Origin: Bacillus sp. RO3
Lineage (GTDB): Bacteria > Bacillota > Bacilli > Bacillales > Bacillaceae_B
Length of the DNA: 64,000 bases
NCBI RefSeq assembly: GCF_012911895.1
Contig: NZ_JAAXCV010000034.1
Span: 372,001-436,000 of the forward strand
Direction: 5' to 3'
The translations under genes were made by a program, and so were the position numbers. This document shows positions 9,154-60,849 of the stretch, piece after piece. The notes beneath the pieces were generated by a model. It was not told the origin of the DNA. It was given only the letters and a program-made list of their open reading frames with translations, and did no database searches. How positions within the stretch are numbered: position 1 is the first letter of the stretch; each line of letters begins with the position of its first letter.

Positions 9154-10050
9154 TTATCCCCCCATTCCTTCTCTTTCTATGCCTTTCACTAATCTGTATA
9201 TTACCTTCATGATGGGTACAAAATGGTGATCTTTATCTGCTTTCGCCAGGAGAATACCTAAGATGGATTCCAATTCTGTTTTCTTTCCAGATTCAACATC
9301 TTTCAACATGGAAGATCTGTTTTGATATGTGTTCATGCAAATACGTTCCACTCCCTCAAAGGAAATGACCCCTTTCATGTGAGGGAAGAGTAGAAGCAAT
9401 TCTTGGAAAAGTTCCCTTTGTATTTGATGAAAGTGGGGATTTTCAACCAGGCGCCCATTTGGTACACGGGCTATAGCCGTTAGGGGGTTAATCAGTACAT
9501 TGGCGAATAATTTCGTAAGGAGCATTTCTTCGAAGTCTTGTTTAAACGAGAAAGGAAAAGCTGGGATGCTCAGTGAAAATAATGTTTCCACTAAACCCCA
9601 CTCTCCTTTGATTATGGCAAGGTTCGTCTTCCCCTCGCCTATATGATGGAGGGTGTGGTCATTTTCTTTCAGTGCTCCATGTTCAACCGACCCTGCAAAT
9701 ACATTGTGGTGGGGAAGTGATCTACACCACTCAAGATGTCCGATACCATTTTGGAGAAATATCAGTGGTATTTGGGGATCTATGAGCTCTAACATACTCT
9801 CCAAGGGCTTTAAATCATATTCCTTCACTGCCACAATCATAAGGTCACATTCCAATGGACTTTCCATCACTAACTCAGAGTGGATTTTTGTTGTGAAAGA
9901 AGAGTTCCCTCTATGGATTGTTACACCTTTCAATGAGAGGTTCTCTACCTGTGACTTTCTTCTAACCCAAAGAGTCACATCGAACGTTTGCCCCAACCAC
10001 CCTGCAAACAAAAGCCCGATTGCTCCTCCCCCGACAATTCCTATTTTCAT
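9154..10050 (-). CDS. panE: 2-dehydropantoate 2-reductase (ketopantoate reductase)
   Basis: NADPH-dependent reduction of ketopantoate to pantoate in pantothenate/CoA synthesis. 298 aa (YlbQ). An N-terminal Rossmann fold begins KIGIVGGGAIGLLFAG, the conserved asparagine loop LIFLQNGIGH is near residue 100, and the catalytic-lysine segment LLTKLFANVLINPLTA is near 175. The start has ribosome site AAGGAG. A terminator at 10135-10164 isolates it from the upstream carboxylase operon. Confidence 0.9.
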   Translation of the reverse strand: MKIGIVGGGAIGLLFAGWLGQTFDVTLWVRRKSQVENLSLKGVTIHRGNSSFTTKIHSELVMESPLECDLMIVAVKEYDLKPLESMLELIDPQIPLIFLQNGIGHLEWCRSLPHHNVFAGSVEHGALKENDHTLHHIGEGKTNLAIIKGEWGLVETLFSLSIPAFPFSFKQDFEEMLLTKLFANVLINPLTAIARVPNGRLVENPHFHQIQRELFQELLLLFPHMKGVISFEGVERICMNTYQNRSSMLKDVESGKKTELESILGILLAKADKDHHFVPIMKVIYRLVKGIEREGMGG

Positions 10051-13533: not shown

Positions 13534-13671
13534 TAATTAAGTGCAGAATTTTTTGTTTATTTGTTATATAATAATAGTAAATCCTTGCATGATCTTTGAT
13601 CAGTTGCAAACGGAAACAAGATCATCTTGTTTTCCCGGATATACTTTTTAGCATTTTTAGGAGGTCATAGG

Positions 13672-14148
13672 ATGGCAGTGAAAGTGGAGAAATTAAAAGT
13701 AAACTACAAAACTCTTGAAGAGTTTAAGAAATTTAAAGAATATGGTGTACAGGAATTATCCATGTTGGAAGACTTACAAGCAAATATTATTGAAAATGAT
13801 AGCGAATCACCTTTTTATGGGATTTATTTTGGAGATACTCTGGTTGCAAGAATGAGCTTGTACCAGCGGAATGCACGCTTTGATCAATACTTTGACCCTC
13901 CTCAAAATTATTTGGAACTATGGAAGCTTGAAGTATTGCCCAAATATCAAAACAAAAACTATGGAAAAATGCTCGTAGAATTCGCCAAAAGCTTCGGTTT
14001 ACCCATCAAAACAAATTCACGCATTAAATCCCAGGGATTCTGGGAGAAGATGGGCTTCGAAGCGGTAACCTATGAAGTGGAAAGAGATTTAGGCGAGAAT
14101 CCATACGTATGGTTTCCAGAAGGCGTTAAAGAACAAAAAATGAGTTAA
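13672..14148 (+). CDS. ylbP: GNAT family N-acetyltransferase YlbP
   Basis: 158 aa, GNAT fold with the acetyl-CoA pyrophosphate loop in the segment LPKYQNKNYGKMLVEFAKS near residue 105. Very close to B. subtilis YlbP as I recall it; its substrate is unknown. ATG 13672 is chosen since AGGAGG lies 8 nt upstream; an in-frame ATG at 13627 has no such site. It is divergent from the carboxylase operon. A TATAAT at 13567-13572 could be its -10, though no good -35 is seen. A copy of the 124-bp repeat family follows its stop. Confidence 0.85.
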   Translation: MAVKVEKLKVNYKTLEEFKKFKEYGVQELSMLEDLQANIIENDSESPFYGIYFGDTLVARMSLYQRNARFDQYFDPPQNYLELWKLEVLPKYQNKNYGKMLVEFAKSFGLPIKTNSRIKSQGFWEKMGFEAVTYEVERDLGENPYVWFPEGVKEQKMS

Positions 14149-14155
14149 CTATTTA

Positions 14156-14320
14156 AGCTGAGTCGGCTCTACCTGAGGCGATCTGCATAAGACGACCCTG
14201 CTGGAAAGGCGCACTTTGCCTTTTTGGCAGGGTTGCCTTATGACCTCGGAGACTCTATCCGCCGGAGCCTGACTATTCAAAAGCGGAGGGAGGCTCAATC
14301 AGAGACTGCATGCTTCCCAA
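14156..14320 (+). repeat. 124-bp-family palindromic repeat, locus A (one degenerate unit plus a fragment)
   Basis: A long hairpin: outer CATAAG/CTTATG, middle arm ACCCTGC/GCAGGGT, and apical AAAGGC-gcactt-GCCTTT. The apical and outer parts match the copies at 25.65 kb and 35.28 kb, while the middle arm is a different but still complementary sequence. From about 14276 a second truncated unit starts (AAAAGCGGAGG..., GCTCAATCAGAG). It lies between ylbP and its terminator, so it would be transcribed in the ylbP 3' region. Confidence 0.75.
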
Positions 14321-14326
14321 AGAATA

Positions 14327-14370
14327 AAAATAGGCCGGCTAATTGATATTTGCCGGCCTATTGTTCTTTT
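14327..14370. terminator. Bidirectional terminator between ylbP and gerR
   Basis: Perfect stem ATAGGCCGGC/GCCGGCCTAT with a 12-nt loop, flanked by AATAAAAA on one side and TGTTCTTTT on the other. It serves two convergent genes. Confidence 0.85.
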
Positions 14371-22702: not shown

Positions 22703-22846
22703 CTATCCTACCATATCTCGACAGATATCGCTACATACTGAAATTGTTACAAAAATGTATAAAATCATGTTGATAGGTGATAATGGAAGTAACAGCATCC
22801 TAACTGATGTTGTTGCCAACCGCGGAGAAGACTTACGATTCCCCAT
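22703..22846 (-). CDS. Possible 47-aa membrane peptide upstream of rsmD
   Basis: An ATG at 22844-22846 has GGAGG 8 nt ahead and reads 47 codons with one hydrophobic stretch (residues ~15-38, MLLLPLSPINMILYIFVTIS). The ribosome site and start codon lie in an imperfect hairpin (22819-22862). I know no relative, and codon evidence is thin; it could be chance. Confidence 0.25.
   Translation of the reverse strand: MGNRKSSPRLATTSVRMLLLPLSPINMILYIFVTISVCSDICRDMVG
22713..22728. other. Palindrome ATATCT-N4-AGATAT upstream of rsmD
   Basis: Perfect 6-bp arms with a 4-bp centre, about 45 bp upstream of the rsmD start. It could be an operator or chance in AT-rich DNA. Confidence 0.35.
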
Positions 22847-22907
22847 AAGTTCTTCCTCCGGTTTCTCCTCTCCCTTTGCCTTCTTTCCAGAAATGGATAT
22901 AGAAGGA

Positions 22908-22936
22908 CCCTGCAGAAGATTCTGCAGGGCTTTTTT
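22908..22936 (+). terminator. Hairpin CCCTGCAGA/TCTGCAGGG with plus-strand T-run
   Basis: A perfect 9-bp stem with a 4-nt loop, followed by CTTTTTT on the plus strand. The nearest minus-strand gene (22935-24332) ends at it, and on that strand only TCCTTCT follows. It may serve the minus-strand gene weakly, or an unrecognised plus-strand transcript. Confidence 0.7.
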
Positions 22937-24332
22937 ACATTTCTATGGAAGCTTCATCCTTATCTACCTTTCCCTTGAACAACTTCTCAAACCAATGCAC
23001 GTCCATATAAATGGAGTTGCCGACCGTTTGGACTGGATTCATTAATAAGCCGTAATTTTCTTCATTATAAATGAAATAATCTTCATTCACATAAAACCTA
23101 AATGTATTCCCATTCATTGTGGTGTAAAATACATTCGGTTGGAGTTCATTTACACTGAGGCCCAATGCTTCGACGGCTTGGGGAAATTGAATGAACTCTC
23201 TACGTTTGTAAGAAATATATGAAAGGTGATGAGGTTTGCCGTTGATGTTCACTGGATGACTGGTCGTTAAAATCAGAGGGACATTTTCATTTTCTCCAGT
23301 ACTTTCAGAGAAAAAGGTTGAGTCAAAGCCGGTTGCATCTCCTAACAACTCATCTAATTTTTTGGCATTCATGTTTTTTTCCTTATGGTCTACCATGCTA
23401 TCCCTAAATGCCCCCAACTGAGAAGAAGATAATCCTTCCACAAATTCTTTGTAGACCCGTGCTGATTGTGGGTCGTTAGGCTTTCTCTTCATGAGGACGC
23501 CGACGATAAACTCTTTTAGATACCCTTCATCATCGGGAAAAGTATACTGTTGAGAAAGGAGAGCTGCATGAAGTTCTTCGATTCTTTCCTCTTCTTCCGT
23601 GTTTCCAACAATCAGATATGGAGAATAAAAGGGTTCTAATGTACTGGTCATGATGACGGTCACAAATCCCTTTAAGGAGCTTAAGGAAGTAGTATCTATA
23701 TTGCTTATATCATCCGGGTCGTAAAACAACCTTATATTAGCAGACTCCTTTTCCAACAATTGTTCTTCTGTCCAATATAAAGGGGACGGACCCCCATTAC
23801 CATTAAAGGAGAAATAATCTATATAATCCATTTTTTTATGGCTGGCAGATTGATAACCTGCTATCCATTTACCTGTCCGGAAGCTCTTTTCTATAATGTG
23901 AATATCCGTATTCAATGTAGTAATCGATGAAAGAACTGGGTGCCAATCTTTCAAAAGCATTGCACCTGAATGTTTAGGCTGCTCGATTGTATAGCTGATC
24001 CTTATCTCCATGAGATCATCATGAAGGTTATGAACAAGAAATTCGCCATTTTCTTTCGTTAAGCATTCTTCCTCCCTGTCATTTAAACATAATAAATCCT
24101 TTGCACCACTTGGCCATTGAATCGTTATGTTCTCAGGAATCTCTGATAAGAAATGGATGGTTTGAGTGACGTGAAATTGATTCCCTTTATGAATAATGGA
24201 GTAAGACTGATTCACCTCAGCTCTGCCGGATTCTTCTGCACTTTCCGTCGTAAACCCCATCCATTGAAAGAAAAGAAGGCTGGAACTAACCAGGATCATA
24301 AGAAGACCAAATGTGATTAATAAGCGTTTCAT
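22935..24332 (-). CDS. Membrane-anchored exported protein of unknown function
   Basis: 465 aa, unrecognised. One N-terminal membrane segment or uncleaved signal (residues ~4-24), then an extracytoplasmic part of mostly beta character. The last ~70 residues (NVFYTTMNGNTFRFYVNEDYFIYNEE..., IYMDVHWFEKLF) resemble the copper-amine-oxidase N-terminal-like stalk domain found on Bacillus exported proteins; that resemblance is from memory. ATG 24330-24332 has GGAG 6 nt upstream. Followed by the structured gap before rsmD. No counterpart here in B. subtilis as I recall. Confidence 0.75.
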   Translation of the reverse strand: MKRLLITFGLLMILVSSSLLFFQWMGFTTESAEESGRAEVNQSYSIIHKGNQFHVTQTIHFLSEIPENITIQWPSGAKDLLCLNDREEECLTKENGEFLVHNLHDDLMEIRISYTIEQPKHSGAMLLKDWHPVLSSITTLNTDIHIIEKSFRTGKWIAGYQSASHKKMDYIDYFSFNGNGGPSPLYWTEEQLLEKESANIRLFYDPDDISNIDTTSLSSLKGFVTVIMTSTLEPFYSPYLIVGNTEEEERIEELHAALLSQQYTFPDDEGYLKEFIVGVLMKRKPNDPQSARVYKEFVEGLSSSQLGAFRDSMVDHKEKNMNAKKLDELLGDATGFDSTFFSESTGENENVPLILTTSHPVNINGKPHHLSYISYKRREFIQFPQAVEALGLSVNELQPNVFYTTMNGNTFRFYVNEDYFIYNEENYGLLMNPVQTVGNSIYMDVHWFEKLFKGKVDKDEASIEM

Positions 24333-25651: not shown

Positions 25652-25875
25652 CAACACGAAATGCGGAGGCGGCTTGGTCAGGCCCGACAAGCACAACTGG
25701 GAAGTCCCAAAAGGCGCACTTTGCCTTATGGGACTTTCCAGTTGTGACCTCGAGGGCCTAGCCGCCGGAGCTGGACAACACGAAATGCGGAGGCGGCTTG
25801 ATCAGAGGCGACATGCATAAGACGAGTTAACATAAAAGACGTTTACTGCCTTTTGGGTTAGGACCATTACTGCCC
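25652..25875 (+). repeat. 124-bp-family palindromic repeat, locus B (one full unit and one decayed unit)
   Basis: Unit 1 starts at 25652 and unit 2 at 25776, exactly 124 bp apart. Unit 1 folds as outer GGCGGCT/AGCCGCC, GGCCC/GGGCC, a 17-bp arm CACAACTGGGAAGTCCC/GGGACTTTCCAGTTGTG with one G-T wobble, and apical AAGGC/GCCTT. Unit 2 is damaged in its right half. This block explains the 394 bp without a gene between ylbG and the 104-aa gene. Confidence 0.85.
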
Positions 25876-25986
25876 CCTCCCCTATGTCTACAGATAATTA
25901 ACATGTTGAATGCCAATTTCTGAAAATGTTTATCAATTGATGGGAAGTGAATACTATATACTAACGTTTAGAATGGAGGGACCCCC

Positions 25987-35190: not shown

Positions 35191-35283
35191 TTGCTCACCT
35201 CATTTCACATTTAACACCTATATCCATTATACTGACAACCCACCCCCACTTCAATGTAAGGTAATGACAAGTTCTTGACAATT

Positions 35284-35563
35284 CGAAAAGCGGAAGCGGC
35301 TTGATCAGACCCGACAAGCATAAGGCGAAGCAACCGGAAAGGCGTTTTCTGCCTTTTGGGTTGCTTTGACTTATGACTCGAGGGGCTAGCCGCTAGAGCC
35401 AGACACTCGAAAAGCGGAAGCGGCTTGGTCAGACACGACAAGCATAAGGCGAAGCAACCGGAAAGGCGTTTTCTGCCTTTTGGGTTGCTTTGACTTATGA
35501 CTCGAGGGGCTAGCCGCTGGAGCCGGACACTCGAAAAGCGGAAGCGGCTTGGTCAGACCCGAC
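35284..35563 (+). repeat. 124-bp-family palindromic repeat, locus C (two full tandem units and a fragment)
   Basis: Units begin at 35284, 35408 and 35532, exactly 124 bp apart; the two full units differ at only a few positions. Each folds as AGCGGCT/AGCCGCT, CATAAG/CTTATG, AAGCAACC/GGGTTGCTT and AAAGGC/GCCTTT. The third unit stops after 32 bp. This fills the 427-bp gap between ctaF and ctaG. Any open frame seen across it is repeat-derived. Confidence 0.9.
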
Positions 35564-35583: not shown

Positions 35584-35616
35584 ACAAAAAAGCCAGCCAA
35601 CCGGCTGACTTTTTTC
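35584..35616 (-). terminator. Terminator after ctaF
   Basis: AAAAAAGTCAGCC, GGTT loop, GGCTGGCTTTTTT on the minus strand, directly after the ctaF stop. Confidence 0.88.
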
Positions 35617-35617
35617 T

Positions 35618-35950
35618 TTAAATCCAAACAATCGTTACAAATGCTAATACTGTGATAAATGCAACAAGTGCACCAGAGTACAAAAATAATGCAGGTGCTT
35701 CATGACCTTTATGACTCATGTGCATGAAGTAGTAAAGTTGAAAAATCAGCTGAACGACTGCAAGTAACAGAATGAACGGTACGACAAAATACTTATCAAA
35801 ATCTCCCGCTACTGCAATAAACGCCACCAATGTTAAGAAAATCATCAACATGAAAGATGTAACCTGCATTCTCATGTCTTCTGCATTTTTCTTACGACGA
35901 TATTCGTAATCTACACTTGGGTTACCTGAATTTGATTGTTGATTCGCCAT
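35618..35950 (-). CDS. ctaF: Cytochrome c oxidase subunit IVB
   Basis: 110 aa with three membrane helices; caa3 oxidase small subunit. VDYEYRRKKNAEDMRMQVTSF precedes helix 1 (first part shown) and IFQLYYFMHMSHKGHEAP lies between helices 2 and 3. Follows ctaE by 4 bp; last gene before the terminator. Confidence 0.93.
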   Translation of the reverse strand: MANQQSNSGNPSVDYEYRRKKNAEDMRMQVTSFMLMIFLTLVAFIAVAGDFDKYFVVPFILLLAVVQLIFQLYYFMHMSHKGHEAPALFLYSGALVAFITVLAFVTIVWI

Positions 35951-60583: not shown

Positions 60584-60622
60584 AAAAAGGATGAAGAAGG
60601 CCAGTTCCTTCTTCATCCTTTT
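60584..60622. terminator. Bidirectional terminator of speA and SR1
   Basis: AAAAAGGATGAAGAAGG, 6-nt loop, CCTTCTTCATCCTTTT. Confidence 0.92.
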
Positions 60623-60675
60623 ATTTATTAAAACCCCTTTATACTACATTAAATCCCCGCTCCCCTTAGCAGGTA

Positions 60676-60795
60676 TTAATCGTCTAATTCTTTATCGTCG
60701 TTGCAATCACAGCAGTTAGAGAATAAAACAGAAACCTTCTCATCCTCATAATGATCGATCGTGCCAAGACATGATTGACATACAATTGTTCCCAT
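60676..60795 (-). CDS. sr1P: GapA-binding peptide SR1P
   Basis: 39 aa starting MGTIVCQSCLGTIDHYEDEK, then VSVLFSNCC, DC and an acidic end. Like B. subtilis SR1P as I recall it: MGTIVCQ start, HYEDEKV core, and paired cysteines, here six in all (two in CQSC, two adjacent, one following). SR1P binds GapA and promotes its link with RNase J1. ATG 60793-60795 with AAGGAGAGG upstream. Too small for common gene finders. Confidence 0.88.
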   Translation of the reverse strand: MGTIVCQSCLGTIDHYEDEKVSVLFSNCCDCNDDKELDD

Positions 60796-60821
60796 CTTTT
60801 TTCCTCTCCTTCACATGTTTA

Positions 60822-60836
60822 TTGTAAACGCTTTAT
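60822..60836 (-). promoter_or_regulatory. cre-like site in the SR1 leader
   Basis: TTGTAAACGCTTTAT (plus strand) matches the core TGTAAACGCTTT of cre; only the penultimate C is missing. Just downstream of the predicted transcription start, a roadblock position. SR1 is weakly CcpA-controlled in B. subtilis. Confidence 0.55.
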
Positions 60837-60849
60837 CTTATCTGTTTCT

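Follow-up and report, generated by a model that had tools for sequence, protein, structure and literature searches.

The tandem array at positions 35283-35563 of the window, by which the whole stretch of 64,000 nt analysed here is meant (Bacillus sp. RO3, contig NZ_JAAXCV010000034.1, positions 372,001 to 436,000 of the forward strand), raises the question of what kind of element it is built from and how its units came to be there. It was the only array detected by TRF in the whole window (period 124, 2.3 copies, 96% matches) and, by the same program, held two complete units followed by 32 nt of a third, all on the plus strand. Unit 1 of this locus C (35284..35407, with the body at 35287-35402 followed by a junction) scored 116.6 bits with the covariance model (CM) described below and showed a fold z of -6.3, and unit 2 (35408..35531, body 35411-35526 and junction) scored 116.4 bits. 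The third unit, truncated at its 3' end (35532..35563), was delimited by TRF and by strain comparison; in the near-identical strain G024 only the 32-nt remnant is present at site C. A terminator-like A-run, hairpin and T-run, read from the sequence on the minus strand (35586..35616), lies on the 3' side of the array and adjoins the stop of ORF 35618-35950, which is encoded on the minus strand.

The earlier note had placed units at three loci of the window, which is confirmed, locus A carrying one decayed unit and a truncated one. Locus B, on the plus strand, starts with a unit with the variant arm CACAACTGGGAAGTCCC (25657..25780; CM 117.8 bits, fold z -7.3), followed by a truncated and decayed second unit (25781..25862; two matches in the profile interval 25660-25862), and no stable fold beyond that of shuffles was obtained for this second copy (25781-25880, z -0.19). 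The decayed unit of locus A (14154..14271, plus strand, CM 87.6 bits) starts 5 nt past the stop of the plus-strand ORF 13627-14148, and a truncated second unit (14279..14314, plus strand) and, on the 3' side of the array, a terminator-like A-run with a TAGGCCGGC..GCCGGCCTA hairpin (14326..14361, no strand assigned) were read from the sequence. The CM matches had E-values of 1e-20 for A (14154-14271), 6e-29 for B (25660-25774) and 1e-28 for C (35287-35402 and 35411-35526), the units of B and C being inside the model's own alignment and that of A outside it. For a single unit from each of the three loci, folding was more stable than in shuffles by 6.1 to 7.3 sd. Elsewhere in the window, Rfam matches were obtained for the ylbH leader and the SR1 small RNA, at 22820-22939 (-) and 60586-60846 (-).

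Across 72 loci the unit body measured about 117 nt and was followed by 6-10 nt before the next unit, so that array periods vary by a few nt and the exact unit length of 124 bp given in the earlier note is not a trait of the family. In the alignment of own units described below, the unit is 115-118 nt long, with the ends AAAGCG and GAGCTGG. The body folds into an imperfect hairpin composed of an outer helix, a second helix, and a long arm whose AAGGC/GCCTT tip is constant. The second helix occurs in discrete swapped versions (AGAGGC/GCCTCT versus AGCCCC/GGGGCT, and others), and several asymmetric features are conserved, namely a GGA/GGA loop, unequal internal loops, and three pairs dominated by G·T. 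The CM was built from 51 units of the own genome, 48 found by regular expression together with three window units, a set which favours well-formed units because of the way in which they were picked; about 11 less regular units, that of locus A among them, lie outside this alignment. A profile gave 62 full units in 38 own-genome loci and the window.

RNAalifold of the 51 units showed 38 pairs, in 22 of which both sides change with pairing kept, in agreement with the compensatory change first noticed in one stem. Pairing was found in 96.2% of the 1930 cells as compared with 83.7% after shuffling, and the covariation score of 0.352 was not reached in any of 500 shuffles (0.124) and fell to at most 0.103 when the partner was slid; as an example, column pair 26-106 is G-C in 29 units and C-G in 20. 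The covariation, proposed in the earlier note as a check, is thus strong in the own units, and the result was repeated on 85 matches from 49 named-contig loci, aligned with the model and hence fitted to the structure, with three minus-strand matches inside (94.4% of cells paired, both sides changing in 33 of the 38 pairs, score 0.509 versus 0.172 shuffled, 0/500 as high). Since the shuffles keep the kinship among copies, these scores are strong evidence of covariation and carry no formal probability. The middle arm, said in the earlier note always to pair, differs and pairs at A, B and C, but some copies break it: arms that do not pair, which the note had set against its own proposal, make up a small share (3-7% of the cells in the long arm are unpaired), and genome G022 has at locus C a single unit, a hybrid of two unit types, in which the middle arm is broken.

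The strand which folds can be read from the mismatches. On the plus strand, the 51 units contained 152 G·T cells as compared with 12 A·C cells, and the 85 matches 207 as compared with 21; when the pairs in which G·T is the rule were excluded, the counts were 32 to 11 and 93 to 15, respectively. Therefore, the plus strand is the folded strand. Such a bias is expected from plus-strand RNA or from single-stranded plus-strand DNA, and not from a constraint on duplex DNA or minus-strand RNA.

Further copies had been asked for, and many, apparently intergenic, were found in the own genome and in other Bacillales. BLAST with the array found 52 matches in the own genome (34 contigs, 4.22 Mb), and the CM found 81 at E ≤ 1e-4 among the best 102 candidates scored; because the unit is near-palindromic, some of these CM matches may be a unit counted again on its other strand. 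At the same threshold, 35 of the 36 genomes searched in the own family, all from a single genus and the own among them, carried the repeat, with at least 101-102 CM matches in each of 11 of the 36; the single congener without a match, G014, does carry matches to RAYT (REP-associated tyrosine transposase) and to group II RT. Within the order, 173 of 249 genomes and 73 of the 105 genera sampled contained the repeat (best 14 candidates per genome scored), and within the class 22 of 200 genomes, 11 from the own order and 11 from one other family. Among the named records with a match, the 80 listed of at least 115 cover Rossellomorea, Cytobacillus, Neobacillus, Metabacillus, Peribacillus, Sutcliffiella, Siminovitchia, Jeotgalibacillus, Litchfieldia, Bacillus siamensis and others named Bacillus. 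A search with a single own array gave one match among 72,556 plasmid records (a 690-kb record of Cytobacillus spongiae) and none among 50,697 phage records, a search which distant variants could escape; carriage by phages or plasmids thus finds no support.

Units stand head-to-tail, and the arrays show one fixed and one ragged end. The number of full units in 239 distinct arrays with a 5' flank was 0 (23 arrays), 1 (133), 2 (55), 3 (11), 4 (10), 5 (5) or 6 (2). After the last full unit, a match to a further unit or the start motif was found in 29/34 own arrays, 31/53 arrays of the search-found loci L051-L102, 51/114 named-contig arrays and 14/14 others; 12.5% of random stretches contain the start motif by chance alone. 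Arrays of the own genome thus regularly end in a truncated unit, and elsewhere about half of the arrays do so.

Comparison with G024 (99.4-99.9% identity in the aligned stretches) showed whole-unit differences at 3 of 7 arrays, the own genome exceeding G024 by 248 bp at C and 123 bp at C28:357.7 kb, and G024 exceeding the own genome by 251 bp at C28:316.5 kb. No newly occupied site was seen between these strains of one species in the approximately 78 kb compared. At C, genomes G004, G007 and G029 carry three unit types that differ in order and number, and matching units at this site are 93-97% alike across species, as compared with 68-78% for unlike neighbours within an array. For units of the own multi-unit arrays, the most similar unit elsewhere in the own genome belonged to the same array in 22 cases and to another locus in 17. 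Taken together, the comparisons of strains, of site C and of nearest units indicate that copying, loss and re-ordering affect whole units.

Array A was present in 5 of 8 genomes and absent in 3, and array B present in 3 of 9 and absent in 6, where absence may reflect a decayed remnant and not a never-used site. Array C was present in 14 of 19 genomes, G024 with its remnant among them, and since this site stays occupied down to about 80% DNA identity in a core gene, movement must be slow. The array-less sites at C read ATGAACATTA (G013), ATGAACATTG (G012) and ATGAACAATAG (G014), close to the unit junction, and those at the corresponding position of G033 and G034 (ATGACATTTGCC and ATGACATTTCCC) are less like it; where the array is present, TTGACAATTAG or TTGAACATTAG stands upstream, and junctions are of the type TGGACAATTAG. 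Over 72 loci the 5' flank shared with the junction a matched suffix of 3.1 nt versus 1.36 nt in shuffled pairs, with agreement over about 5 nt. MITEs have terminal inverted repeats and a target-site duplication; here the whole unit is one imperfect palindrome, and no clean target duplication was seen at the part of the single-unit insertions inspected. A simple target duplication of 5-7 bp was dropped, as the leader before AAAAGC in G033 and G034 can belong to the unit and the array-less C sites are already junction-like in host sequence; for these two reasons, the target is read as a sequence resembling the junction. Single units are also nested inside a second palindromic repeat at 12 loci (L020, L045, L136, L150, L152, L158, L172, L179, L191, L193, L090 and L092). 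This second repeat, of about 130 nt in related genomes, has the order GTTGATT..CTCGACTCCTGCGGGA..GGACAGGTGAGACC..GGCTCACCGCC..GCGGAAATCAAC, and it was found as well in L255 near 9180-9540.

Neighbouring genes were called with a simple ORF finder, arrays masked, and the position of the arrays relative to them was polar. The strands of the left and right neighbours of 209 arrays were (-,-) in 101, (+,-) in 51, (+,+) in 36 and (-,+) in 21. Where the left neighbour was on the plus strand (87 arrays), 54 arrays start 0-7 nt past its stop and the next one at 23 nt; in the own loci alone, 9 of 13 such neighbours were stop-adjacent. The stop of an ORF of at least 60 codons lay no more than 10 nt upstream of 71/233 arrays as compared with 2/224 on the mirror side, and these 71 arrays follow 51 distinct genes, told apart by their last 20 residues; in about one third of the arrays a stop codon precedes the 5' end by 0-8 nt. 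A terminator-like A-run with hairpin occurred on the 3' side of 61/218 arrays and on the 5' side of 6/218, and a hairpin with T-run on the 3' side of 41 and on the 5' side of 4. At two sites where the own genome has no array, its position relative to the native stop can be read in G033 and G034. At site 1, AAAAGC begins 7 nt past the native stop in G033 and 6 nt in G034, the 7 nt in G033 being identical to the leader found at its unit junctions; at site 2, AAAAGC lies 4 nt past the stop in G033, and older repeat sequence lies upstream in G034. For the GATC-leader variant (loci of G033, G034 and G020), 6 of 8 first units had a stop 0-5 nt before the leader, two of the 10 first-unit rows having been dropped for a unit end upstream.

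In other genera and in G033 and G034 the single or last unit runs into a conserved tail of about 50-60 nt, in the order TTATCCAC(A), in some elements after GTGGATAA as a hairpin, then TTTTATAATTTCCTARAC, usually followed by an A-run and hairpin. In 2.1 Mb of loci chosen for the repeat, the ending ATTTCCTARAC stood at 15 distinct places, in 12 cases attached to the repeat, and RNAalifold of 12 longer-form elements showed the unit paired and the tail unpaired. The motif TTATCCACA, identical to the DnaA-box consensus, is found in the tail, in most cases together with TTTTATAATTTCCTARAC, in L126, L138, L140, L147, L186, L187, L204, L217, L260 (with TTATCAAC instead), L284 and L297. In L284 (1496-1707; AGTCCGTTCC..GGTACGGACC) and L289 the unit carries an additional hairpin arm, inserted between its two 3' arms, and Rfam places a SAM riboswitch (L297, 1665-1765, minus strand) about 60 nt past the 3' end of a longer-form element.

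An enzyme for the repeat was sought among known partners of such elements. The own genome (G000) contains three Y1_Tnp genes (C25:4631, C16:25245 and C4:15542), all matching the RAYT model, one over the cut-off and one with an internal stop; no repeat was found within about 1.5 kb of these three RAYT-like genes, nor at the locus of the RT named below. RAYT is weakly associated with the repeat, being present in 121/173 repeat-bearing versus 32/76 repeat-free genomes (OR 3.2, kinship uncorrected), and as the sole partner it was rejected, since 29 of 113 repeat-rich genomes are without it. The own genome also carries a group II intron RT, and this candidate was rejected as well (78/173 repeat-bearing versus 35/76 repeat-free genomes, OR 0.96).

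No Rfam family reached its gathering cut-off over the repeat in the window or in five longer-form loci, in agreement with the earlier note, to whose author no described family was known. At E ≤ 1 the loci L012, L013 and L021 gave six rows, all below gathering; three of these lie over units of the repeat in L013 and belong to Phe_leader and to two eukaryotic miRNA families, with a best E of 0.009. The literature searched, mostly without subscription papers including the bcr originals, contained no description of the hairpin family. The bcr1 repeat is reportedly specific to the B. cereus group according to the 2004 paper on it. In another account, bcr1-bcr18 of this group are intergenic, some MITE-like, some with conserved structure and many in UTRs (PMC3446304). 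Set beside them by description only, the present repeat resembles the bcr families as a structured intergenic repeat of Bacillaceae; the passages on bcr make no mention of head-to-tail arrays or of stop-codon docking, both of which are features here (PMC3446304). REPs are described in part of another source as 20-40 bp long, with a GTAG or CGTC tag, RAYT transposases, sometimes tandem arrangement and presumed mobilisation in trans (PMC3733652). The likeness to REPs and BIMEs, as far as that part goes, lies in dispersed and sometimes tandem hairpins and in the presence of RAYT-like genes; the differences are a unit of about 117 nt, the lack of RAYT in part of the repeat-rich genomes, and the tag, neither GTAG nor CGTC being present at the unit ends as read from the 51-unit alignment.

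Integron attC sites are usually found after stop codons and are bounded by a 7-bp core GTTRRRY and an inverse core RYYYAAC, and the V. cholerae repeat (VCR) measures about 124 bp. They are characterised, in the portion of the source used, as long imperfect inverted repeats, variable in sequence and conserved in structure (PMC8876359). On that description they share with the present units a long imperfect inverted repeat and oriented arrays at gene 3' ends, and differ in that here the repeat is dispersed and no genes lie between units; neither attC core was seen by eye at the ends of the 51 aligned units. BOX elements of the pneumococcus are modular structured repeats with a variable number of an inner tandem module, comparable by description with the present family in modular structure and variable unit number, in a different organism. 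The stem-loop families Bhal-1 and Bhal-2 of Bacillus halodurans, with models of 74-76 bp in the passages describing them (PMC2267715), are likewise repeated stem-loops in Bacillales and, compared by description only, differ in size. We place the repeat among small structured intergenic repeats; in its workings it is like REP/BIME, bcr or attC elements, the comparison with bcr being by description only.

With a probability of about one half, the repeat is a non-autonomous hairpin element, mobilised in trans and recognised by structure, whose arrays turn over by recombination. Mobility is deduced from three observations, the scattered copies, the sites that carry the array in some genomes and not in others, and the nesting in a second repeat. 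The plus strand would fold as single-stranded DNA, or be copied from folded plus-strand RNA, and an enzyme supplied in trans would recognise the hairpin through its structure. The element would enter sites resembling its own unit junction (TGGACAATAG before the boundary and AAAAGC after it), existing copies would thus be good targets and give rise to tandem arrays, and these would expand and contract by recombination between direct repeats of about 120 nt; copies would survive mainly at gene 3' ends, where harm is least. This mobile element is consistent with the dispersed copies, the covariation, the whole-unit strain differences, the present and absent sites, the agreement of 5' flank and junction, the shuffled unit types at C, the nesting and the stop-codon polarity. 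It is weakened by the lack of a partner enzyme among RAYT and group II RT over the 249 genomes of the order, by the long occupation of site C and the absence of a new site in the approximately 78 kb shared with G024, by the want of a clean target duplication at the single-unit insertions inspected, by the decayed remnant that may lie behind absence at B, by the less junction-like C sites of G033 and G034, and by G014 without a match. A bolder version, which we regard as doubtful, is a cassette-like system of Bacillales, in which geneless single-stranded hairpins of about 125 nt would dock by structure-guided recombination at stops and transcription ends and be stacked and re-ordered, like integron cassettes, by a recombinase not yet known for such action.

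The main rival, to which a tentative place is given, is a module of mRNA 3' ends, in which plus-strand hairpins, lying past the stop codon and ahead of the terminator once transcribed, would shield the upstream mRNA or form its 3' end, with selection maintaining both pairing and location. The sense orientation directly past the stops of 51 distinct upstream genes, the terminator-like hairpins on the 3' side, the excess of G·T over A·C on the plus strand and the 36/209 arrays between two plus-strand ORFs all favour it, but 122/209 arrays have a minus-strand left neighbour, so that their plus strand does not follow a plus-strand neighbour, and presence at A and B varies among related species. 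Module and mobile element may both be true. Retroposition of a small RNA, SINE-like and reverse-transcribed, with the incomplete last laps of the arrays reflecting a circular template, would account for the fixed and the ragged end and for the longer form with its conserved tail, and a group II intron RT is at hand in the own genome; it is nevertheless improbable, because neighbouring units of an array differ by up to 32%, unlike the product of simple lap copying, and because group II RTs, the only ones compared over the order, show no association (OR 0.96). Least probable of all is that the pairing is kept by mutation alone, template switching in the quasi-palindrome copying one arm onto the other: several neighbouring pairs do swap at once in the second helix and hybrid units exist, but this process would erase the conserved asymmetric features (the GGA/GGA loop, the unequal loops and the G·T-dominated pairs), and it is further weakened by the G·T bias.

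The observation from which this work started is confirmed, and was understated; its interpretation is supported, the mobile hairpin element being the best fit among the roles which had been listed and the position at the ends of transcription units being newly added. The family is abundant and widespread, yet without a name in the literature searched. The differences in unit number between near-identical strains suggest that the arrays may serve as typing markers. Docking at stop codons together with the strand polarity makes it testable how small hairpin elements reach the 3' ends of genes, and whether such elements alter the messages that they join.
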